A stretch of 64,000 bases of DNA from Microbotryomycetes sp. JL201. Lineage: Eukaryota > Basidiomycota > Microbotryomycetes. How positions within the stretch are numbered: position 1 is the stretch's first letter; each line of letters opens with the position of its first letter. Shown piece by piece: positions 2,891-63,760 of this stretch. The DNA lies in NCBI GenBank assembly GCA_033819885.1, contig JAQYUZ010000054.1, positions 46,231-110,230 on the forward strand, written 5' to 3'. The translations under genes and the position numbers were made by a program. A model generated the notes under the pieces. That model saw nothing but the letters and a program-made list of their open reading frames with translations. It ran no database searches and was not told where the DNA came from.

Positions 2891-5414
2891 TCAAGAATGT
2901 GCTGCCGACGTGCCACCATTGAACCTCTTCTCGACTGCTTCTCTGATAGCTGTTCGAGCTGCATCAGTGACGCTCCGTTGTCGGCCATGTTGACTCGGTC
3001 TCCTCAAACCTGTCGGTGGCGGTCCACTGGACGACGACGACATTCCGCTGTTGACTTCATTCAGCGCAAGCGGACTATGAAGCTGAGTCGTAGTCGTAGA
3101 CATCGTCGCCACTGGCATCTTGTCAGGGCCAGGAGCGTGAGCAGCAGCTTGACTCTGGGCGACCGCAACGTCACTCGTTGCTCCTGCCCCACTTTGTCCA
3201 CCACCAATCGTACCGGGCGACACCGCAGACGTCGTCGATCCAACAGGTTGAAGTTTACCCGATTTCCGCGCGACGAGACACTGCAACGCTGCCAACCATT
3301 TAATCTCGTCTTCTTCAGTCGGAGCACAAACGAGGTACGTTCGTTTCGGCGTAATGATCTTGAAACAGTTTTCATAATTGCGATCGGCTTGAGAGATCAG
3401 GTTGGCAGGCGAAGAAAGGGGCATCGAACTGGAGGAGCCAGGTGACATGGGTTCAGACAAGGTGCTTTGTCGTCTTGCGCCAGTGCCCACGCCCGTGCCG
3501 CCGCCTCCTCCTCCGCCTCCCTCGTATTCGATCGCGTCCAGTATCCTCGTAATTGGAATCTGTCGATGAATTTTGGTGTCCTGCAGATCCATCACGATGG
3601 GTCAACGTGATGAAGTTTGTGTCTCACGAAACCATTTTAAAGTCTCACCATGTGGGATTTCGAGTACATGAGTCTGCCACCCATCAAAACAAACCACCTC
3701 TTTCTCCAATTTTTGCGTTTGCCTTGCTTCATCAAGTATCCAGCCAAGATCACCTTGTTTGGGTCACCAAATCCGCCGTCAACCGGACCAGGACTGATCG
3801 GAGCCGACTGCTGCAATGGAGCAGCGGGCTGCTGCACTTGTTGTGATTGCGGCAGAGGTTGCGCTTGTTTTTGCTGAAGGGAATTTTCGACGAATTGTAG
3901 TCCCTGTACAGCGTTCGGACCGGGCGGAGAAACATAACGATCAAACCCGTCCTCGTCCTCAGAGCTCGAGACACCCCCACCCGGGCTTTGAGGGATCTGT
4001 AAACTGCCTTGTCTCGTACGTGAAAAGTACCCAGCGCTTCCAGCATTCGGTGGCAACGACAAGGTCAAGCTCGGTGACCTCGGCGCCGTCATGGCACTTT
4101 GCGTCGAGGGTCTTCGTTGTCGGTCAAACAGTGAGCTCCCTTCTAGCGGGTCGAGTTGAACAGGCGCTCCTGACGAGTCTTGCAACCCGAGCGCGCCTGA
4201 TGTTGGCGGTCCGGTTGCAGCTCCGGCGGACGAGGTCGAGGCGTACGAAGATGACAAGCCAGATGTTGATGTTTGAGAGTACGATGTTGGAGGGGTTGCA
4301 GGTGCAAATGCGGCCATACCCGGCACGTTCAAACCTGAGGACCCAGGGATCGGTATCGCAGCAGGTCCGACCGTGCCGTTTGGAGAGACAAGTCCAGGCG
4401 TCGGGGGTGCCGTCGGTTGAGGTGTCGTTTGACTCTTCTCCAACGAAGGCCTCCGAGTTGGTGTGTCGTTGCTCGATCTCGTCGTGGACGTCGTCAACAA
4501 GTCTTGCTTCGCCTGTTCGATCGACCTGCACCATGCTTGCACAGCCGCGTCCGACTCTGCCTTGATGTAATAAGTTCGCTTTGGAGTGACAATGCCAAAC
4601 GCGTGAGAATGTTTTTTGATCTCGACGGGTCCGACAGAGTGGATCTCTTGCAGCGGAATTAGTCTCAGCAGGCGGTATTCCTGCTCGTCCCCGTGCGTCA
4701 GCCGAGAACGATTCGAAAAGCCAAAGCTCGAACAAAGCGCACCTTGTCGTTCTTGTACATTGCCAATTGACCTCCTCTTAGGACGAACCACCTCTTTTTC
4801 CAGGTCTTGCGCTTTTCGCCCTTTTTCATGAGGTAGCCGCTCTTGACGGCGACATTGTCGCTCAACCTTGCATTGTCTTGCTGCACTCGCAATCTCTCCA
4901 TTGCGCGGTTGATTGATACGTGTCCTGAGTGGTTCTGCGTCGCTGACGCTGAAGTGAAATGTCCCGTTTGGGATTCGTGAGGCCCCAAGGTGGCGGCGGC
5001 GGTAGATGACGCGTCAGAGTCTGAACCCGATTCTTGTTCGGAAATTGCGGTTAGAGGCACGTTTGGTCTGTTGGGTGACGACGGGGTGTCGTCCTCTGAC
5101 GCGCTCGACATGCCACTGGCCGAGCTGGTCGAGATTGCAGGGTGGACCTGCCGGAGCAAGAAAGGGAGTCGCAAGATCCCGATCAGAACATGGTTGACCA
5201 GAGCACGAATCATAAAGTGGTCATGATTTTTGCTCACTCTTCTGGACACCGAGCTGCCTCTGCGTTGCATCTGGTTGTCTGCAGCAACTGTGAGGTTTGA
5301 GGTTGCGAGCGGCGCGAGCGCCACGTTTGGCGATCCTAGTTTACGGTGAACCTCCTGGGCTGACGGTCCGTTGGTCGCTGCGTTTGACATGCTTGTATTC
5401 GCCTGCGTAGTCAT
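2891..5414 (-). CDS. Tandem pleckstrin-homology (PH) domain protein
   Basis: Two PH domains are visible. The first begins SGYLMKKGEKRKTWKKRWFVLRGG and ends with IVTPKRTYYIKAESDAAVQAWCRSI. The second begins AGYLMKQGKRKNWRKRWFVLMGGRL and ends with IITPKRTYLVCAPTEEDEIKWL. Each is split by one short intron (4681-4742 and 3581-3648) at nearly the same place in the fold, after the first strands. Both carry the basic K-x-n-K/R-x-R loop typical of phosphoinositide binders. Between and after them are long Ser/Pro/Gln-rich low-complexity stretches. An in-frame hydrophobic stretch near 5147-5235 is flanked by a GTGAGC donor and a CGGCAG acceptor and is probably an intron, so the protein is about 800 aa. 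Inference: a membrane-recruited adaptor. No catalytic domain is seen. Confidence 0.8.
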
Positions 5415-49886: not shown

Positions 49887-50569
49887 TCAGTGATTCCGCT
49901 TTGTGCCTCCTGCCGCTTTGCCCTTTTGTCGCTCCTCGGCGGGGATCCCATCAGGAATAAAGGCGCCAAGCTTCTCAACTTTGCCAACGGTCCCGTCCAT
50001 GCCTTTGTACACCTGACCGTCCTTTGCAGCATTCACGGGTCGAATAAAGGTTTCGAAAGAAGGGTTCGAGCAAGCAGAAGCAACATTACTCGTCAGTCCG
50101 ACGTCTTTCATGCTCTTTGTCGCCGCGTATGTGTACACTCGCAAACACTTGTTCAATACGCACCTCTGGCTGTTTGCCTGCCGCGCGCTGCAATGTCTCC
50201 TTCGCCTCTGTAGCCATGTTTTTCGCGTAATCTATCCGCTTCTTGATCGGACCATCACCTTCATGACTTGCAGCCGGTCGTTTCTGCGCATTTAGGCAAA
50301 ACGGCAAAACGTTGAGGAACGAATCAGCTCTGACTGCGGGAGCGCGGGGGTTCGCGGTCTGTATAGAAGGCGACTCGACTGAACGAGCAAGTCTCGCTCA
50401 CCTCGCCGACTCCTTCACCTTCGGCTGGGGCGAACAACTTTGTACTGGATGCAAAAGTCCTCAAGACGGCAACCGATGTCTGAAGCGAGCTCAAGGTCGA
50501 CGAAACTTGCTGTAATCGCCTTTGATGCACGCTTGAGCGGCAGACGGCCATCAATCTGTTGCACGACAT
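49887..50569 (-). CDS. Small hypothetical protein, predicted mitochondrial
   Basis: Three exons give about 160 aa. Exon 1 (ATG 50569) is Arg/Ser/Thr-rich without acidic residues (SSVHQRRLQQVSSTLSSLQT, then LRTFASSTKLFAP), a typical mitochondrial presequence. Exon 2 encodes KKRIDYAKNMATEAKETLQR, a charged amphipathic helix. Exon 3 encodes SFETFIRPVNAAKDGQVYKG and VGKVEKLGAFIPDGIPAEER, ending TKRNH. The intron before exon 3 most simply ends at the AAAG before SMKDVG, which keeps the phase. I do not recognise a family. The upstream 311 bp to the PLC gene contain a GTCACGTGAC palindrome. Confidence 0.55.
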
Positions 50570-50880: not shown

Positions 50881-53800
50881 TCAGCCGGCCAAGCCAGTAC
50901 TGACCACTCTGCTGTTGATGAACACCGTCGAAAACAGGTGCTGGTCCCCGTAAGCATCGTACAAGGGGACATGACGGTAACCTAGGCACCGAGAATCAAC
51001 TCATGCCATCTTTCTGCACCGAGAAGACTGACCTGGCAAGAGAGCGCCAACGGGAATGGCATAAGCGCCAAGGAAATCGCCCTTGCCTTCCTCCTTTGCC
51101 GCTTTGAAATTGCCCTTTGCGTTGAGGACCTCGAGCCTCACAAAAACAAGGTCCAGCATGCCCTCGGCAGGGTGACAAGAGAATTCGATCCTAGTCGCAA
51201 ACTTGAAAATTGGATTAAACGAGTTGCCCCTGGACGTAGGAGAATGAGCGATTGTGCAAAATTGCCGTGCCTCTGGACTCACGACACTACTTTCGTTCGT
51301 CGTTTGACAGGTTGGACAACGCCAGGCTGATACAGGCTGACTTCGACGAACGGGTCCACCCCGATCATCTCCGCTTCAGACGCCGACGACGAATCGCGCG
51401 GTCTTGGCAATTGTTGTGCCGATAAAATCTGCTCAAAGGATATTTTAGCAAAAGATGTCCTCAATCTGAGGCGCTTGACTCACCTCGAGCTCGAGCACAA
51501 ACTTTTCAGAGCGGACGAGCGCCGTCTTGTCCTTTTCGATACCTTTCTTGCGCAAAAGCTCGGGCTTGAGAACGTATCCCGACCTCCCGGTGCGAGAGAA
51601 CATGGCAGTGTTGAGTTCCATGCCAACATCTGCTCAGAACATCAGCTGCGGTCGAGGTCTGTTTCAGACGTGGTGAAGCTAACCAAATGTTTGCCAGTTG
51701 AGGGCGACGAGCTGGACACCTGCAGCCCACATGTGGTGGGGCGTGTAGTTTGAGCTTGCCAGCCTCCTCCCTCGCGGATACGCCCTGGTAAGATGCCCTC
51801 GATTATGCGCCACAAAGTCTTGCCTCGCTCCTTCGTCTCGGATCATCTTTGTCAAAGCCGATTCGCCAACCGAAATCACATGCGTCGGCGCATAATTTTC
51901 CTTCTTGTTGAAACCTCGAGCTTTGACACCAACTGTATACACAAGTAAAGACAGCAAGGCAGAAGACATGACATCGCTTTTCGGAGGCGGAGGCGGGGGA
52001 GTCGGGAATGCCGGCGACATTGGCGGCGGCGACGTGCTCAGCTGCGCGGTCAAACGGTTGCCTTGAGTCGTAAAAACACTTGCTGATGCGGGCGAGCTGC
52101 CCGAGAACGAAGACCGGTGGCTGGCGAGACTGCCAGAAGACGATCGCCGGGACAATGACGGACGGCGGATGTTTTCGCGTACGGCGCGAAACACTGTTCA
52201 TCCACAAATCAGCCGTGAACAACGTAAACCATCGTAAAAATGACCTTTCCGAATGTCAGAATCCGAGCTAGCTGACGAGTCGGCGCTCGAGCTCTCGTCA
52301 GGCACAACCGCGAGCGGAAATCCATTCGCGTTGGACGTTGTCACGAGCTTGTTCTTGGCCTGAGGACTGAAAGTCAGAGGCTATATTGATTCCGGAGCAG
52401 AGATGTGCACCTTGAGAAGAATGCGGCCCTTGAGATCGTTAGGCGAAGGCAGCTTTTCAATCTCGCCGTCCATATCGTCTAAGCGTTTCGACACGAGCGT
52501 GTCGCCGAGTGTCACTCGCATGATTTCTGCCAGTCTATCCTGTTGGGTCAATCCGCAATGCACCTCCATGCTGAGAATGACAGGGTATGGCGAAGATAGA
52601 AAAGAGTATTCCCGGATGGCCTCGAGAATCGTCCTGACGGGAATTTTTGACGTAAAAGTCAAGCCGTGGGTAACGACTGGCTCTCCATCGTCTCCGTCCC
52701 AGACGTCCACTGTAATTTGGTCAGTACTGACTCGATATTCGGGCCGCGGGGCTCACGCTCGACGCTGCGACATCCCTGCTCGAGGGCACGAATGTAGCCC
52801 TCAACAGTACTCTCGCCCTGGAATTGATTGCCAACAAGGTAGGTCTGAGGCGGATGCACTGTCAGCGTGTGTCTCTGAGCGCGGGTCGAGGAAGGTGTCG
52901 GCTCACGTTATGGCTCGAGCTAATGTAGTATTCGACAATAGGACGGTCCATATCCTGACCAGAATCGTCCCGCAAGGCAGCGTTGTCAGAAGACATCAAG
53001 AATGAACTAAAGCCGTCCAATGTGATTGTGCGTGTGTGGCGGTCGGCATACTTGATGAACGACTTTGTCAAAGCTTCTTCAGATTGATGTATCTTTACAA
53101 ATTGTTAGGGCAGATGAATCACCACAAAACTCGACAATGCTCACGCTCTGCCGTTCTTTCAGGAAGGTTTTCCAGGACTTTTCATCGAAAACGCCGGCGG
53201 CTCCGACCAAGCCGCGGTAGACCTCTTCCACCTCGTCCCTTCGCTTGAGTAGTTTCACAAATTTTTGAAATGCTTCAAAGTCCAGAAAATCGTTTGGGGC
53301 AGCCGTTTGCTGTCAGGCGGACGATTAGACTCGGCGCAAACTACTGCACGTTGTGTGACTTGCCTTGAATGCTGCAGAGATTTCATTCTTGCCCATGCCG
53401 ACGCCTAGGCGCATGCACAGCTGGTGGACCTCTTGCTCCGTAACAACTTTAGCCTCGTCTACAGGTTTCCATGATGTGCTCTCGTCTGCGTTGGCACAGC
53501 TCGGCTTCGCCAGGCGGCCTTCCTTGAAACCTTCAAGCGCGTTCTTCCACAATTGCGCAGCCTGGACATTTGGAGCAATGAAGTGCACGAGTTTGTAGTT
53601 GGATGCGTTGTTAAGGACCGATCGTTGAGGCGGAAGCGAATACACTAGCGTCATCCATCGCGGTTGGACGTCTCGCGAAATTTGCAAAGCTGTGCGGTAG
53701 AACGATCCTTGCGAGCCAAATCTCAGGTCCTTTAATCTTGAAAGGGGTACGGACGCCTGCTTCTTGCCGCCAATGCCGAATCCGCCTTTCTCCCAACAGA

Positions 53801-54463
53801 GGCGTACGTCTTGCCCTCCAACTAGGCCGATACCAACCTCGAGGCCTAATTCGCCATCGTCAGGCAAGTCGCCACCAATTTCTAGCCACATTTTTCGAGG
53901 CCTTGCACGTCTTGCGCTTTTGGCAGACACTTTCAGCATCTCGATACCAGGCTTGACGAGCTGAGGCGGGATCACGAACGTGAACGAGTTTCGTCGACCA
54001 CGCTTCTGAGCAGCTTCTGATTCCGTTGAGACTTGCGACGACTCGATTCCTCCTGTTTGCTCCAGACGCAATTCATGGTGCCCTAGCGATGAACGATGGG
54101 AAAATGAGTGAATAGACACGAACCGAGCGCTGAGCGACGAGACACGCAGTTTATGAGAACGCAATGATGTACATGCACTAGCTTCATTCGAAATGTCCGG
54201 CTGTCAAGCTTACCTGCATGTTGTGCTATTCTGTTTGGTCTGGACGGGTCCATTGGCATGACCGAACCTGGGCCAGCATGTGAAGGCCTGGGAGTCCCTT
54301 GGACAGGCGTCGGAGGAGTCTCTACCAATTTGACTGACGACGTGGCCGTGATCAGTGGTCGCAGGTGATTTTGATGGCTTTCTGGCGGAGCTGAGACAGT
54401 CGATTGTAGGCTCTGCGCTCCGTCTTGGCTTGCAGAGAGACCACCAGGGCATAAGTTGGCCAT
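50881..54463 (-). CDS. PLC1: Phosphoinositide-specific phospholipase C, delta type
   Basis: Hydrolyses PIP2 to IP3 and diacylglycerol at the plasma membrane. From the ATG at 54463 a disordered leader precedes a PH-like region ([40 protein letters not shown]) and EF-hand-like helices. The catalytic X domain has [13 protein letters not shown], with the first catalytic His, [29 protein letters not shown] and [20 protein letters not shown] with the second His. The Y domain reads [20 protein letters not shown], followed by [11 protein letters not shown] and [15 protein letters not shown]2 domain ([39 protein letters not shown]) ends in a TGA at 50881-50883. A Ser/Pro-rich linker of about 100 aa separates X and Y. 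More than ten introns. Confidence 0.92.
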
Positions 54464-54715: not shown

Positions 54716-54780
54716 GAGCTCAAAGTATGCTGCTTTTCACCATTCTACGAGCTCACGTATGCTGCTTTTCACCATTCCAC
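54716..54780. repeat. Tandem duplication, unit about 33 bp
   Basis: Two adjacent copies, 54716-54748 and 54749-54780, share GAGCTCA at the left and the core TATGCTGCTTTTCACCATTC, differing at a few bases. Confidence 0.85.
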
Positions 54781-55153
54781 CTGCGTGCACGGACCTGGAC
54801 GCCATGGGCGCTCACTTGCAGGCCAAGCGCGTAATAGACGCTTCTTTGCGACATCTGACTGTAGCGCTGCACAGGTTGCCATTGTTTGATCCAATCGGTG
54901 GGCAACCTCATGTTTTGCACTGTTGTGGTGATCGCGCGAAGCTCTGGACCGGATCGCAAGGATCTCGACCACAGAAGGTCGCCATGTCGCTTGGCAAGAT
55001 GAGGCTGGAAGTGGCATGGATCTCGCCGTCATCCGAATAATGCTACAATGGCGCCGCGGCAGGTCTACACCGGCGGTCACGTTGCAGAACCGTATCAAAA
55101 TTACACGGTTCTGAACCCATCAGAACTGGGGATCTCGATCCGTTGCAAGCAGG

Positions 55154-55231
55154 TAGGATGCAGGAGGGTGGCACTCGGCAAGTCGAAACAGATAGGATGC
55201 ATGAGAATGGCACTCGGCAAGTCGAAACAGC
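55154..55231. repeat. Tandem duplication, unit 39 bp
   Basis: Two adjacent 39-bp copies, 55154-55192 and 55193-55231. The right 20 or so bases (core TGGCACTCGGCAAGTCGAAA) are identical, and the left part has a few substitutions. Confidence 0.85.
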
Positions 55232-56166
55232 TCTCATAGCTTGTAGCACACCAAAGCTTTTCTGGCGGATCCCACCTGCAAAATAGCAGTCCATTAGAGC
55301 CGTACGAATTGGACGAAATTCAGCGGTACACAGGCGAGAGTGCTTCGCGACATGAGCTGCACATGTGCTACGTCGGGCACTGACGCATGATTGACCCTAT
55401 TTGCGCTTGCGGCGCCGAAAAATGAGGTTGGCGAGTTGTACCGACACGATTCTGGTCAAGGACGCTGCAACTTTCATGAACAGTGTCGCACTGCAAGTGA
55501 AGAGGTAATCCGGGTACAGTAATGGGCAATATTCTGCACGTATGCTGTGCATCAAAGCTACCTCATCTTCGGGGGTTTCCAAAGCTACCGAACCTCCGCC
55601 ACAACTTTTTCGCGGTGACAACATGCATGCATCGCTCGACAACGAGAAGGAATCCGGCAAAGGCGTTTCTCACCGGGAAGCAATGTTCTCGCCAAGAAAC
55701 CGAACTGCGCTCGAGTAGTTATGCACCAAAGACCGGACCGGCACAGTTGTTCGGGACTTTTAAAAGGTTTAGCCGGGCGGTGGGCGACGCGCCGACGCAG
55801 GGGCTGCGCAGCGATCAAAACCAGTTTTGGTCACAGTGCGCCAAGACGGAATCTCCTTCTGGAGAATTTTCATCCGTTTTGCGTCGCAGGCGCAGCACAG
55901 TCGGCCCCAACCAATTGGCTGCGCGAGCGCCCCAGGGCTCCCCACAGATGAGCAATCTGCCGACGCGGGAGGGCCAGATCTACGCTTCGCAGCGAGGCCC
56001 GCCTGGAGACTTGAATGCGTTGCCCCGCTTCACCACTCTTTCCTTTCCAAACATCACTGACCGAAAAAATCTTCGCTGTCGATACTTCCCAAGCGCCAGC
56101 CAGCCAATCTTCTCCCCTTGATCGCTCCCGGTCCTCTCTCGCCCGCTTCCGAGAACGCTCGCCGCG

Positions 56167-58240
56167 ATGGACTCGCCTATCGACGAGAAGCTCGCCGTCA
56201 AACATGTAGAGGAGCTGCACAGCGCCAATGCTCACGTGCAAGAGTTTGACCCCGTCATCGTCAAACGCATCGTCCGCAAGACGGATTTGTGAGTCGCGCT
56301 TTCGATCGATCACGGTCTCTTGGGATGAGCTTGCTTGCACTGACCTACAACAATTGACGTGAAGTATCCTTGTACCTCTCGTCACTCTGTTGTTCTTGCT
56401 GAACTTCATCGGTATGTCGCTGTGGAGAGCGCAACCGCCAAGAACCATCGGGACTCTGACCGTCCATTTGCTCCGCTCCCACCAAATAACGTGCAGATCG
56501 TGCTGCTGTCGGCAATGCCAACGTTGCCGGTCTGTCCAAAGACCTCAAGCTCTCAGCTGAGAAATATCAGTACAATATCGGTCAGTTGACCCCAATCCGA
56601 CGTCTCGTGCCGAGCGTTCGAGCTCTAAACAGCAGTCGCTAACCAGGACTGGGATCGTCCTTCCTTTCAACAGCTCTCATGATCTTCTACATTTTCTACA
56701 TTATTGTCGAGGTGAGCCCAGAAGAAACGAAGGCTGCTTTCGCGCGAAGCGCGGCTATGCTGACTGCGAGCAACCCTTGGTAGCCCATCTCGAACTTGAT
56801 TCTCAAGAAGGTTGGCTATCTGTGGTTGTCGTTCCTGGTCGTTGGATTCGGTGCCGTCACTATTGGTGAGTGCTAGTAAGAATGTGGCTGCCTAAGGGCC
56901 CTAAATGTTGACCGACACTAATCTGTCTGCAGGCTCTGCCTTTATGAAGAACTATGGCGAATTCGTTGTCGTCCGCATTCTTCTCGGCTGCACAGAAGGC
57001 GGTGTCATTCCGGCCGTCGCTTTCATTCTGTCGCGCTTCTACACTCGTCGTGAACTCGCTTTCCGATTCGGCATCTTTTTGGCCTTGGGCCCGACTTTGT
57101 CTGGCGCTTTCGGTGGCCTGCTTGCCGCTGGTTTGCTCAACTTGGGCAGCATTGGATCTGTCAAAGGATGGCGCTGCATCTTCCTCGTCGAGGGTTCGTT
57201 GATTTCGTTGTTGCTCCTGTAATGAGGGGTAAATTCAAACAACGTTGCTGATTCGTCTTTGCTGGCTTTCCAGGCATTCTCACGACCGGTGTCGGCATCT
57301 TGAGCATCTTCTTGTTGGCAGATTCGCCTGAGACTGCCCGATTTCTGTCTGCCGAGGAAAAGGTCATTGCGTCGGCCCGTGTTGCAGCCGAGCACATTGG
57401 CAACTCTCGCAAGCCTGCCACCAGAAAGACCACGATCCAAGGTTTTGCCAACATTCAAGTTTGGCTCTGCGCTTTCGGTTACGGCTTTGTCAACATTATC
57501 GTCCAAGGTACTTCGCTGTTTTTGCCTACTGTCGTACGGACTCTTGGAAAGTGAGTCCAGCCTCGTGCTTGTGCATTCGGTTGATGATGGCTAATCGTTT
57601 GCCGTCATGTAGTTACTCCACCATTGAAGTCCAGCTTCGCTCGGTGCCTCCTTACATTGTCGCTTGCGTCTACACCTTGACCATCTCGTGGTTGTGCTCG
57701 CGCACTCGCCGTCACGGCATCTTCATTATCGGCTCCATGCTCTTGTCGTGTGTCGGCTACATCATTTTCCTCGCCTCGACCAACAAGGCCGTCCTTTACT
57801 TTGCCACGTTCTTGACTTTTTCGGGTGCCGTTCCCTGCGGTCCCATCTTCTTGTCGTGGGCCGCCGCCAACTCTGCCCCCGATACGTCGCGCGCTATCGC
57901 CACCGCCATCGTACCCGGTGTCGGAACTTGGGGTTCAATTGTCGCCACATGGGCCTACCTTCCCAAATACGCCCCGCGCTTTGTGCCCGGCAACGCTCTC
58001 AACACGGCTGGCGCTCTCGCCGCTGCGGCTGTCGCCGGTGGCATTGTGAGTTTTCTATATTTTTCGGACGGACTGCGAGAAGCGTCTTCTGACCGGTATC
58101 GTTGTCTTCAGTTGCTTTATGTTCAAAATGAGAACAAGTTGCGCGAGCAGGGCCGCCGCGACCACCGCCTCGAGGGCCTTTCGCAAGACGAGATTGATGA
58201 CCTTGGAAACAGGCATCCCGACTTCCGTCTTCTGATCTAG
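56167..58240 (+). CDS. MFS transporter, anion:cation symporter type, tandem copy 1
   Basis: A twelve-helix plasma-membrane carrier of the ACS family (the group of yeast allantoate, pantothenate and nicotinate permeases). Exons give FILVPLVTLLFLLNFIDRAA, VGNANVAGLSKDLKL, LGSSFLSTALMIFYIFYIIV, EPISNLILKKVGYLWLSFLV, VVRILLGCTEGGVIPAVAFI, LSRFYTRRELAFRFGIF, WRCIFLVEG, LADSPETARFLSAEEK, FVNIIVQGTSLFLPTVV and GPIFLSWAAANSAPDTSRAI. N-D-R in helix 1 and the R-x-x-L-G-x-x-E-G loop are family marks. It ends HPDFRLLI with TAG at 58238-58240. About nine exons. From 56209 to 58056 it is base-identical to copy 2, as far as I compared, including all introns checked. The substrate cannot be named from sequence alone. 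Confidence 0.92.
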
Positions 58241-58399
58241 GGACCGCTCATGATTTATTCCGGGGTCAACGGGCACATCGCAGCGTTGCATCATTGTATT
58301 TGTCTGGTTTCAGAGGTTTTCTCCAATCTGAGAAGGGACAGGGCTTGTTCTTGTACACGTTGATCGAGGAACTGTATAAATGTTTGGCATCCGATTCGT

Positions 58400-58640
58400 T
58401 TCGGTCATCGATCGGGCTCTGGTGGCGAATGTGCCTGATCGCCGCTTTGTGATTGCCTGTACTCTGCAGAACGTCGAGAGAATTCTGACGCCTCTCATGT
58501 CGTTCACGCCTGCTCGTCCTTACCCTGCAGCCGCACATCGACGTTGCCGCTGGCTGGCTGGCTGGCCTCCGCAGTCTACGCTCTTCCACGCAGAAGAGGG
58601 CATACTCGTAGAACAGCATTCAAAGCGCAATAAGTATTGA
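58400..58640 (-). pseudogene. Decayed copy of the small membrane-protein gene found after MFS copy 2
   Basis: Read on the minus strand, a 56-bp stretch near 58550-58606 matches the functional gene around 61520-61585 at 40 of 56 positions without gaps. It encodes LFYEYALFCVEERRLRRP against LLYKRAILGEEQRRLPRP. A second matching block, GACGTnCTGCAGAG, and the neighbouring TGCCTnA-TCGCCGC lie at the expected distance downstream. Reading frames are shifted between blocks and no full-length frame remains, so this is a pseudogene fragment. Its position after MFS copy 1 mirrors that of the intact gene after MFS copy 2. The ends are approximate. Confidence 0.6.
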
Positions 58641-59132
58641 AGCAGTGGAATTATGTGGATTTTGCGCAGAAAGGAGGATCTCGAAGGCCGGATCAAGCGT
58701 GCGGGCGACCGCTACGCTGCGTGGCATCAGTTTTGGCTTGCAATGCGCTGAGACCGTCGCAAGCATTAGGAGCGGACTGGTTACAAATGAGGACAGAAGC
58801 AGAAATACGACGAAATCGGATGTGCAGTGATGTACGACTTTTCATGATAGTCTCCGCAGTGCTGCGCGGGTCGCCACAAAACCTTTCCCCCGCCGCAGCT
58901 CTGCGAACGCGACAATGCAAGTGCCAGATCTCCGGTTTGCTGCGCAAAGCTGCCGGCAGAATGGAACCCGTTGTTCTTCGTCCGCTCCTCTCTCTCTCGC
59001 CATCACTCTCGACCACAGACGTCCCTGTTTTTGTCTGTCGACAAACCTCCGTCCTCGTCAGAGCTTCGTATTGACGAAGACACCTGCTGCGCTCTCGTCC
59101 CGCCCGTCAATCGCTGCTCCTGAGCGCTCGCC
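58641..59132. promoter_or_regulatory. Promoter region of MFS copy 2
   Basis: It contains blocks that line up with the promoter of copy 1 in the same order: GGGCGAC (about 58706), CAGTTTTGG (about 58729) and GCCAGATCT (about 58922). The surrounding sequence has diverged, so these blocks are candidates for retained regulatory sites. Confidence 0.4.
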
Positions 59133-61206
59133 ATGGACTCGCCTATGGATGAAAAGCTCGCAGTCAAGCACGTCGAGGAGCTGCACAGCGCCAATGCTCA
59201 CGTGCAAGAGTTTGACCCCGTCATCGTCAAACGCATCGTCCGCAAGACGGATTTGTGAGTCGCGCTTTCGATCGATCACGGTCTCTTGGGATGAGCTTGC
59301 TTGCACTGACCTACAACAATTGACGTGAAGTATCCTTGTACCTCTCGTCACTCTGTTGTTCTTGCTGAACTTCATCGGTATGTCGCTGTGGAGAGCGCAA
59401 CCGCCAAGAACCATCGGGACTCTGACCGTCCATTTGCTCCGCTCCCACCAAATAACGTGCAGATCGTGCTGCTGTCGGCAATGCCAACGTTGCCGGTCTG
59501 TCCAAAGACCTCAAGCTCTCAGCTGAGAAATATCAGTACAATATCGGTCAGTTGACCCCAATCCGACGTCTCGTGCCGAGCGTTCGAGCTCTAAACAGCA
59601 GTCGCTAACCAGGACTGGGATCGTCCTTCCTTTCAACAGCTCTCATGATCTTCTACATTTTCTACATTATTGTCGAGGTGAGCCCAGAAGAAACGAAGGC
59701 TGCTTTCGCGCGAAGCGCGGCTATGCTGACTGCGAGCAACCCTTGGTAGCCCATCTCGAACTTGATTCTCAAGAAGGTTGGCTATCTGTGGTTGTCGTTC
59801 CTGGTCGTTGGATTCGGTGCCGTCACTATTGGTGAGTGCTAGTAAGAATGTGGCTGCCTAAGGGCCCTAAATGTTGACCGACACTAATCTGTCTGCAGGC
59901 TCTGCCTTTATGAAGAACTATGGCGAATTCGTTGTCGTCCGCATTCTTCTCGGCTGCACAGAAGGCGGTGTCATTCCGGCCGTCGCTTTCATTCTGTCGC
60001 GCTTCTACACTCGTCGTGAACTCGCTTTCCGATTCGGCATCTTTTTGGCCTTGGGCCCGACTTTGTCTGGCGCTTTCGGTGGCCTGCTTGCCGCTGGTTT
60101 GCTCAACTTGGGCAGCATTGGATCTGTCAAAGGATGGCGCTGCATCTTCCTCGTCGAGGGTTCGTTGATTTCGTTGTTGCTCCTGTAATGAGGGGTAAAT
60201 TCAAACAACGTTGCTGATTCGTCTTTGCTGGCTTTCCAGGCATTCTCACGACCGGTGTCGGCATCTTGAGCATCTTCTTGTTGGCAGATTCGCCTGAGAC
60301 TGCCCGATTTCTGTCTGCCGAGGAAAAGGTCATTGCGTCGGCCCGTGTTGCAGCCGAGCACATTGGCAACTCTCGCAAGCCTGCCACCAGAAAGACCACG
60401 ATCCAAGGTTTTGCCAACATTCAAGTTTGGCTCTGCGCTTTCGGTTACGGCTTTGTCAACATTATCGTCCAAGGTACTTCGCTGTTTTTGCCTACTGTCG
60501 TACGGACTCTTGGAAAGTGAGTCCAGCCTCGTGCTTGTGCATTCGGTTGATGATGGCTAATCGTTTGCCGTCATGTAGTTACTCCACCATTGAAGTCCAG
60601 CTTCGCTCGGTGCCTCCTTACATTGTCGCTTGCGTCTACACCTTGACCATCTCGTGGTTGTGCTCGCGCACTCGCCGTCACGGCATCTTCATTATCGGCT
60701 CCATGCTCTTGTCGTGTGTCGGCTACATCATTTTCCTCGCCTCGACCAACAAGGCCGTCCTTTACTTTGCCACGTTCTTGACTTTTTCGGGTGCCGTTCC
60801 CTGCGGTCCCATCTTCTTGTCGTGGGCCGCCGCCAACTCTGCCCCCGATACGTCGCGCGCTATCGCCACCGCCATCGTACCCGGTGTCGGAACTTGGGGT
60901 TCAATTGTCGCCACATGGGCCTACCTTCCCAAATACGCCCCGCGCTTTGTGCCCGGCAACGCTCTCAACACGGCTGGCGCTCTCGCCGCTGCGGCTGTCG
61001 CCGGTGGCATTGTGAGTTTTCTCTATTTTTCGGACGGACTGCGAGAAGCGTCTTCTGACCGTTATCGTTGTCTTCAGTTGCTTTATGTTCAAAATGAGAA
61101 CAAGTTGCGCGAGCAAGGCCGCCGCGACCACCGCCTTGAGGGTCTTTCGCAAGACGAGATTGATGACCTCGGAAACAGGCATCCCGACTTCCGTCTCTTG
61201 ATTTAA
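59133..61206 (+). CDS. MFS transporter, anion:cation symporter type, tandem copy 2
   Basis: The same exon-intron structure as copy 1, exactly 2,966 bp downstream. The protein begins MDSPMDEKLAVKHVEELHSA, where copy 1 has MDSPIDEK. In the first 42 bases I count seven nucleotide differences, only one of them changing an amino acid. Then 1,848 bp are identical. From 61023 onward differences return: one or two in the last intron, and about eight synonymous changes in the final exon, including CTG/TTG and TAG/TAA. Both copies keep full open exons, splice sites and all membrane helices, so both are probably active. The predicted proteins differ by a single residue, so any functional difference should lie in expression. 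Confidence 0.92.
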
Positions 61207-61354
61207 AGCTGTTGATTGGATTTGTTTTCAGAGAACGCTGGCTTCAACGCAGTACTCCATATTGTGTTGGGTCTACTCTTGTAGGGTCTCTCTCTCCCCG
61301 AGAGGGCATAGTGGTTGTACAAGTACCGGTCCATCGTGGAATCGAATGCAGTCG

Positions 61355-61820
61355 TTAATTATATACACCAGGTTCTTGATTCTCTAATACACTGCGATGC
61401 TCGAGATACCGTCGCGACGATGCCTCATTCGCCGCCTCTGCTTCCTTGATCCTCTGCAGCACGTCTGAAGGTATCCCTTCGTCTCCGGTAGCGGTTGCAC
61501 CTGCTTGTCCGTGTCGCTGCACGCGTGCATTTTCGCTGACGGTCGCTGGCCTCGGCAGTCGTCGCTGCTCCTCGCCGAGGATGGCGCGCTTGTACAAGAG
61601 CACTGACGAAGCGATCAAGAACGGAAATGTGACAATGATCGTGCGGATCCTGTAAGGCAATGGAAAGGTCAAGCAGTCTGTCGATGCCCGGCAGAACCAG
61701 TCTTGGCTCGAATCGCATACTCACCGGCGCGCATCGGGACTGAGAGGTGGGCGAGCCAGCTTGGTAAGATGGGAAAAGCAACGTAGGTGCTTTGCGAACG
61801 GCGGGAAGGTGGCGAGAACT
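61355..61820 (-). CDS. Small single-pass membrane protein, predicted mitochondrial; start unresolved
   Basis: Two exons join in phase across the intron that starts at the GTGAGT near 61726 (minus strand). Upstream: a basic, Phe/Leu-rich stretch HLTKLARPPLSPDARR. Downstream: IRTIIVTFPFLIASSVLLYK (the membrane helix), then RAILGEEQRRLPRP and a long charged helix DVLQRIKEAEAANEASSRRY ending PGVYN, TAA at 61355-61357. The N-terminus resembles a mitochondrial presequence, but the open frame reaches a stop upstream (near 61870) without an in-frame ATG, so a further 5' exon is likely. Small fungal mitochondrial proteins with this layout exist, but I cannot name the family. A degraded relative lies between the two MFS genes. 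Confidence 0.6.
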
Positions 61821-61942
61821 CGAAGCGAGTCGAGATGACCTCCCGCCCAGGAATTCAGCGAAATCTTTTACAACAGATGGGCATTCGCGATGATACTGTT
61901 TGTGATGACCTCGGTCGCTTGAAACCTACAAGAGTCTCGATA

Positions 61943-63680: not shown

Positions 63681-63760
63681 TAACTCGGACGGGGATCGAA
63701 CCCGCGCTCTTCCGCTAAACAATATAGGAGGCGGACGCCGTACCACTTGGCCACCGAGTT
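63681..63760 (-). tRNA. tRNA-Arg (anticodon CCU) with an 8-nt intron
   Basis: All four stems fold. The acceptor is AACTCGG with CCGAGTT, and the D arm is GCC...GGC. The anticodon stem is TCCGC with GCGGA, and the T arm is GCGGG-TTCGATC-CCCGT. Internal promoter boxes are present: A box TGGCCAAGTGG and B box GGTTCGATCC. The anticodon loop has 15 bases (CTCCTATATTGTTTA), that is 7 plus an 8-nt intron placed after position 37. Removing it leaves a 72-nt tRNA. T33 is followed by CCT, reading AGG codons for arginine. A Pol III terminator follows. Confidence 0.9.

Follow-up and report, generated by a model that had tools for sequence, protein, structure and literature searches.

How can two neighbouring genes be identical, base for base, through seven successive introns while their coding ends and their flanks have drifted far apart? 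The question is raised by the 64,000-bp stretch of DNA analysed here (the window), positions 46231-110230 of contig C50 in the 17.15-Mb, 92-contig assembly of Microbotryomycetes sp. JL201, a basidiomycete of the Pucciniomycotina. Within it two genes for major facilitator superfamily (MFS) transporters lie head to tail, at 56167-58240 (copy 1) and 59133-61206 (copy 2). Collectively, the comparisons presented below argue that these genes are old tandem paralogs whose central parts have been homogenised by ectopic gene conversion, which we consider the best explanation of the locus and to which we assign a probability of about 0.9.

The identical tract and its borders

Direct comparison confirms the pattern that an earlier note, made from the letters of the window, had described: two copies offset by 2,966 bp that share a long identical block with differing ends. 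All 1,848 bases of 56209-58056 recur without change at 59175-61022, introns 1-7 included. The seven differences that had been counted in the first 42 coding bases are present (six synonymous and one replacement, I5M), as are the roughly ten in the last intron and exon, which comprise 2 of 66 positions in intron 8 and 8 of 129 in the last exon, all of them silent and one in the stop codon (TAG/TAA). Over the whole gene span, therefore, 17 of 2,074 sites differ (7 + 2 + 8), none of them inside the block; fifteen codons are affected, the stop included, with I5M the sole replacement. When 17 sites were placed at random, none of 100,000 trials reached a run of 1,848 bp (longest 1,198; log10 P about -15).

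The two borders of the tract have different shapes. The 5′ edge is abrupt and lies inside exon 1, with seven differences in the preceding 42 bp and then none, while the 3′ edge is stepped rather than sharp, passing from 0/1,848 through 2/93 and 8/91 to about 32% plus gaps. The zone with intermediate divergence differs at 2 of its 55 intron sites, which has a probability of 2.5e-7 at the flank rate, and the chance that the only two differences in 1,941 bp would both fall in the last 93 bp is 0.0023 for this interval, which was picked post hoc. The stepped edge hints at two or more events, the older with a slightly longer tract, or at patchy repair. Used as a query against the assembly, the tract gave two listed matches, both of them these gene copies, and outside the two genes no further exact direct repeat of at least 40 bp occurs in the window. 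GC content is similar across tract, introns and flanks.

Old flanks around an identical tract

The earlier note had also called the flanks of the copies largely unalignable. That description holds only for an ungapped comparison and was not borne out by gapped local alignment, which finds homology on both sides of the gene. Downstream, the sequence following copy 1 aligns with that following copy 2 at a score of 156 (336 of 493 ungapped columns identical, 32 gaps), where shuffled sequences reached at most 45 and the best of 400 random stretches of the window reached 47; a separate blastn alignment of the gene continues beyond the stop codon to 58627. Upstream, the alignment scores 63 (158 of 226 columns identical, 18 gaps), a value that none of 400 random stretches attained (best 43), the shuffle maximum of the longest upstream comparison, 57, lying near it. 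The next two 300-bp stretches further upstream score 32 and 20, without a matched background, and three unrelated pairs of stretches scored 27-33.

The downstream homology includes a trace of another gene. Copy 2 is followed by a small gene on the opposite strand, OIV83_005874, and between the two MFS copies tblastn places a relic of the same gene, interrupted by an in-frame stop, that matches the small-gene protein (P0241) at 29% identity (E 3.5e-5). Three further relatives of OIV83_005874 were found, all from Sporobolomyces, and the Sporobolomyces proteins P0242 (E 0.002), P0244 (0.002) and P0243 (0.015) match at the same place, each E value being that for a target of 892 bases. Both the orientation and the position of the relic are consistent with the downstream DNA alignment. 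The duplication therefore extended into the small gene, and the extra fragment has since decayed.

These observations assign two ages to one block. The downstream flanks differ at 157 of 493 ungapped columns, a divergence K of about 0.41, which is a floor because it is drawn from best local alignments. By comparison, the tract contains 962 sites that lie in introns (519) or at third codon positions (in the 499-aa gene model), and none of them differs, giving a 95% upper bound of 0.31%; zero differences at 962 sites would have a probability of 10^-160 at the flank rate. If rates were equal, the last homogenisation would be no more than roughly one percent as old as the duplication.

Table. Features of the locus, in window coordinates; "homogenised" and "unconverted" are used as under the gene-conversion explanation
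Feature	Position	Strand	Basis or remarks
Phospholipase C gene, phosphoinositide-specific, neighbour upstream of copy 1	51001..54340	-	Limits approximate, by eye against JL221 protein; open frames
Region upstream of copy 1, homologous to 58861-59115 but diverged	55918..56159	.	Gapped local alignment
MFS transporter gene, copy 1	56167..58240	+	Nine exons, eight introns; spliced open frame 499 aa
Exons of copy 1	56167-56288, 56365-56411, 56497-56580, 56647-56711, 56784-56865, 56933-57193, 57274-57550, 57613-58045, 58112-58240		
Unconverted 5′ end, 14 codons	56167..56208	+	6 synonymous and 1 replacement difference; pS (proportion of synonymous sites differing) 0.72 over only 8.3 synonymous sites
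Homogenised tract, copy 1	56209..58056	+	0/1,848 differing; introns 1-7 whole and 11 bp of intron 8
Intermediate zone	58057..58149	+	93 bp, differing at 58057 and 58096 (intron 8)
Unconverted 3′ end	58150..58240	+	8 silent differences in 91 bp; pS 0.34, codons 470-499
Decayed duplicate of region 3′ of copy 2 (61219-61748)	58252..58781	.	Gapped local alignment
Pseudogene relic of small gene, between MFS copies	58401..58646	-	tblastn; in-frame stop
MFS transporter gene, copy 2	59133..61206	+	Copy 1 structure shifted by 2,966
Homogenised tract, copy 2	59175..61022	+	Identical to 56209-58056
Small gene after copy 2, OIV83_005874, last-exon coding part	61358..61648	-	Stop codon 61355-61357

Gene conversion and its rivals

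A block whose outer parts are old and whose middle has been copied is the outcome of gene conversion or, formally, of a double crossover. The reading that the earlier note had favoured thus gains support, since the duplicated block extends past the gene on both sides and is decayed there, while introns and silent sites within the tract are identical, and recognition of the flanks as old duplicated sequence strengthens it. The same evidence upholds that note's case against a single recent tandem duplication with subsequent divergence of the ends. Such an event would account for gene bodies that are nearly identical, and it allows one duplication and one age; the far-diverged, gapped flanks and the decayed pseudogene within the block, set against identical introns, therefore rule it out for practical purposes, and we consider it extremely improbable. 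Purifying selection acting alone to keep the copies alike would be in keeping with the conserved amino acid sequence at the ends outside the tract, but it is unable to fix 519 intron bases together with third positions, and the silent sites of those same ends differ at pS 0.34-0.72, so that its probability is close to nil. Homogenisation through an RNA or cDNA intermediate, which the confinement of the tract to the gene might suggest, is just as negligible, because both copies contain the seven introns complete and identical, indicating that the template was DNA.

The alternative that deserves most attention, raised as a caveat in the earlier note, is an artefact of assembly or polishing, in which the copies truly differ somewhat within the tract and one consensus has been written into both. 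The tract exceeds the usual short-read insert, and an assembler can write a collapsed node twice in a tandem loop. Merging of this kind should be possible only for copies that were already nearly identical, however, and sequences as divergent as the flanks would be expected to stay apart; an assembler or polisher could thus mask a few differences, but it would not create the observed pattern from flank-diverged copies. Copy-specific sequence is also resolved on either side of the block. Among MFS genes elsewhere in the assembly, for which 59 matches were listed, three of the four regions fetched hold local pairs, all diverged, and these were kept distinct, though they are too diverged for a strict test. 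We therefore regard an artefact as improbable, while giving it clearly more weight than the other alternatives.

Several results pull in the opposite direction from gene conversion between old paralogs. Copy number and identity alike rest on a single assembly, and the 5′ end outside the tract comprises only 14 codons. The flanking sequence nearest the genes is not significantly similar when taken by itself: 13 of 200 and 34 of 200 shuffles reach the score of the first 60 and 150 bp upstream, respectively, and 10 of 200 that of the first 60 bp downstream. Taken alone, 58600-59132 scores 30 against a shuffle maximum of 43; support for the downstream homology is good as far as about 58600-58630 and weakens after that. 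Because unrelated stretches give 72-81% identity in short best alignments, the case for flank homology rests on score and length and not on percentage. Finally, the coding ends differ in protein at 1 of 44 positions between the copies and at 7 of 44 from the JL221 protein (by eye; p 0.058); this would also be expected if the duplication postdates the JL221 split or if conversion reached the ends at an earlier time.

The history that best fits the pattern would begin long ago with the tandem duplication of about 2.97 kb of DNA that took in the transporter gene, some sequence upstream of it and the 3′ portion of the downstream small gene. The spare piece of the small gene would then have become a pseudogene while the intergenic flanks drifted far apart, as their alignment shows. 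Much later, a break in one copy may have been repaired from the other at the DNA level. The overwritten stretch would start at codon 15 and reach intron 8 or the first bases of exon 9, some 1.85-1.94 kb, and the stepped 3′ edge may point to at least two such events. Since conversion needs near-identity, the gene body would remain open to renewed overwriting and the diverged flanks would not. A tract of 1.85-1.94 kb is close in length to the meiotic conversion tracts of Saccharomyces cerevisiae, for which the excerpted text of PMC5736917 gives 1.8-2 kb (quoting Mancera et al.) and medians of 2.9-3.6 kb. A further proposal, which we hold only tentatively and lean somewhat against, is that repeated conversion holds the two proteins alike while the promoters diverge, yielding one protein under two regulatory programmes, with the gene borders marking where conversion stops for want of flank homology. 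Within 300 bp upstream of either gene, promoter motifs were too few for use.

Comparable cases are known from other fungi. Ectopic gene conversion between duplicated genes has been reported in Aspergillus flavus and A. oryzae (PMC12844118, in excerpt), where, as here, paralogs within one genome are nearly or fully identical, introns included, and the duplicates are older; that excerpt deals with several gene groups and with trees across two species, whereas the JL201 locus consists of two direct tandem copies some 3 kb apart, and its tract borders lie at exact positions within the gene. In S. cerevisiae, duplicates with low synonymous divergence have been ascribed to gene conversion or codon bias (PMC2728529, in excerpt). 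They resemble the JL201 pair in that the coding region is far more similar than the flanks and the apparent youth is misleading, but codon bias would be insufficient in JL201 because the introns are identical as well. The JL201 pair also retains traces of flank homology, while according to the same excerpt of PMC2728529 the yeast pairs keep only 0-10 bp in 80% (5′) and 86% (3′) of cases.

As a natural record of ectopic conversion, a process itself already well known, the locus is a clean one, from a little-studied fungal lineage. Within one duplicated block it unites a relic usable as a neutral clock, introns that were converted and coding ends that were not. Coding divergence taken by itself would give a grossly mistaken age, the gene bodies looking new and the duplication being old. 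Among yeast transporters, HXT6 and HXT7 of S. cerevisiae are nearly identical tandem hexose transporters. The JL201 genes resemble them by description in being tandem, nearly identical MFS transporters, and differ in belonging to another transporter family. The excerpted text of PMC8150848 mentions HXT6/HXT7 only for an increase in copy number. Searches of the literature on Microbotryomycetes and gene conversion, judged by titles and abstract openings, returned nothing on this locus, and under strain names the organism's name was absent from the best-matching papers.

The transporter, its relatives and the neighbourhood

Selection seems to have maintained both copies as functional proteins, as suggested by coding ends that hold old silent differences and almost no amino acid change (13 synonymous differences and one replacement over 44 codons). 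The Met5 version carried by copy 2 is that of the cluster representative, P0001, which is OIV83_005873 of Microbotryomycetes sp. JL201. The deposited protein has 499 aa, the same length as the spliced model. Use of the acceptor before 56674 (exon 4 starting at 56674, not 56647) gives 490 aa, equal to the length of the JL221 protein, and removes nine residues that the other 11 aligned relatives are without. The 499-aa model thus probably retains 27 bp of intron 3 (56581-56673) as coding sequence, the 490-aa form being the likelier.

An MFS_1 domain (PF07690) covers most of the protein (residues 48-424, E 1.8e-25). No NCBIfam subfamily reached its cut-off, the best being TIGR00893 (2A0114) with 149.7 bits of the 395 needed. 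A single-sequence search of solved structures gave no match at E 1e-6, and a profile search gave three weak ones (best E 2e-7), to a glucose-6-phosphate exchanger, a D-galactonate transporter and a rice protein. The protein is likely an organic-anion transporter of the Dal5-like (anion:cation symporter) group.

In JL221 one MFS relative stands at this level of similarity, OIO90_006372 (84%), a single-member cluster among the best 120 of 238 matches, in which two strictly identical JL221 proteins might appear as one listed entry. At the ends outside the tract this protein fails to discriminate between the copies as to the direction of conversion, and several residues there that are common to the JL201 copies but differ in JL221 look ancestral (by eye against outgroups). 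Its locus tag is consecutive with that of the JL221 phospholipase C, OIO90_006371, and the contigs of both are given as 44,468 bp, which fits, without proving, a single MFS copy in JL221. JL221 was not among the four matches found in a search with the small downstream gene.

The deposited protein of that small gene, OIV83_005874, starts with MRAGE-IRTII (region 61721-61867, minus strand), against M(A/S)KLSPD(G/A)RR-IRTII in its relatives, and a frame that ends in LSPDARR lies just upstream of its intron. The first exon was probably misread in the deposited model.

The phospholipase C gene upstream of copy 1 has its JL221 relative in OIO90_006371 (82% identity across 75% of the query; PF00388, PF00387 and PF00168). 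The C-terminal part of the JL221 protein (P0121) is similar, by eye, to a separate frame of the window near 50086-50397 (minus strand), and the JL221 gene model may be a fusion of two genes. Two short tandem repeats, at 54716-54777 (32 bp x 1.9) and 55150-55230 (39 bp x 2.1), lie in the interval from the phospholipase C gene to copy 1. On the far side of the locus, Rfam identifies a tRNA gene at 63681-63760 (minus strand, 54.6 bits), which is absent from the ARAGORN list (bacterial code); on its far side an open frame is cut by the end of the window, which most likely coincides with that of the 110,230-bp contig.

One of the three local MFS pairs noted above, a tandem pair on contig C51 (L016:1167-1466 and 4341-4640), contains about 300 bp at 84-98% identity, including an exact run of 71 bp, with the remaining 100-column stretches at 57-85%. 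This stretch, picked out post hoc, is possibly a small and older conversion patch.

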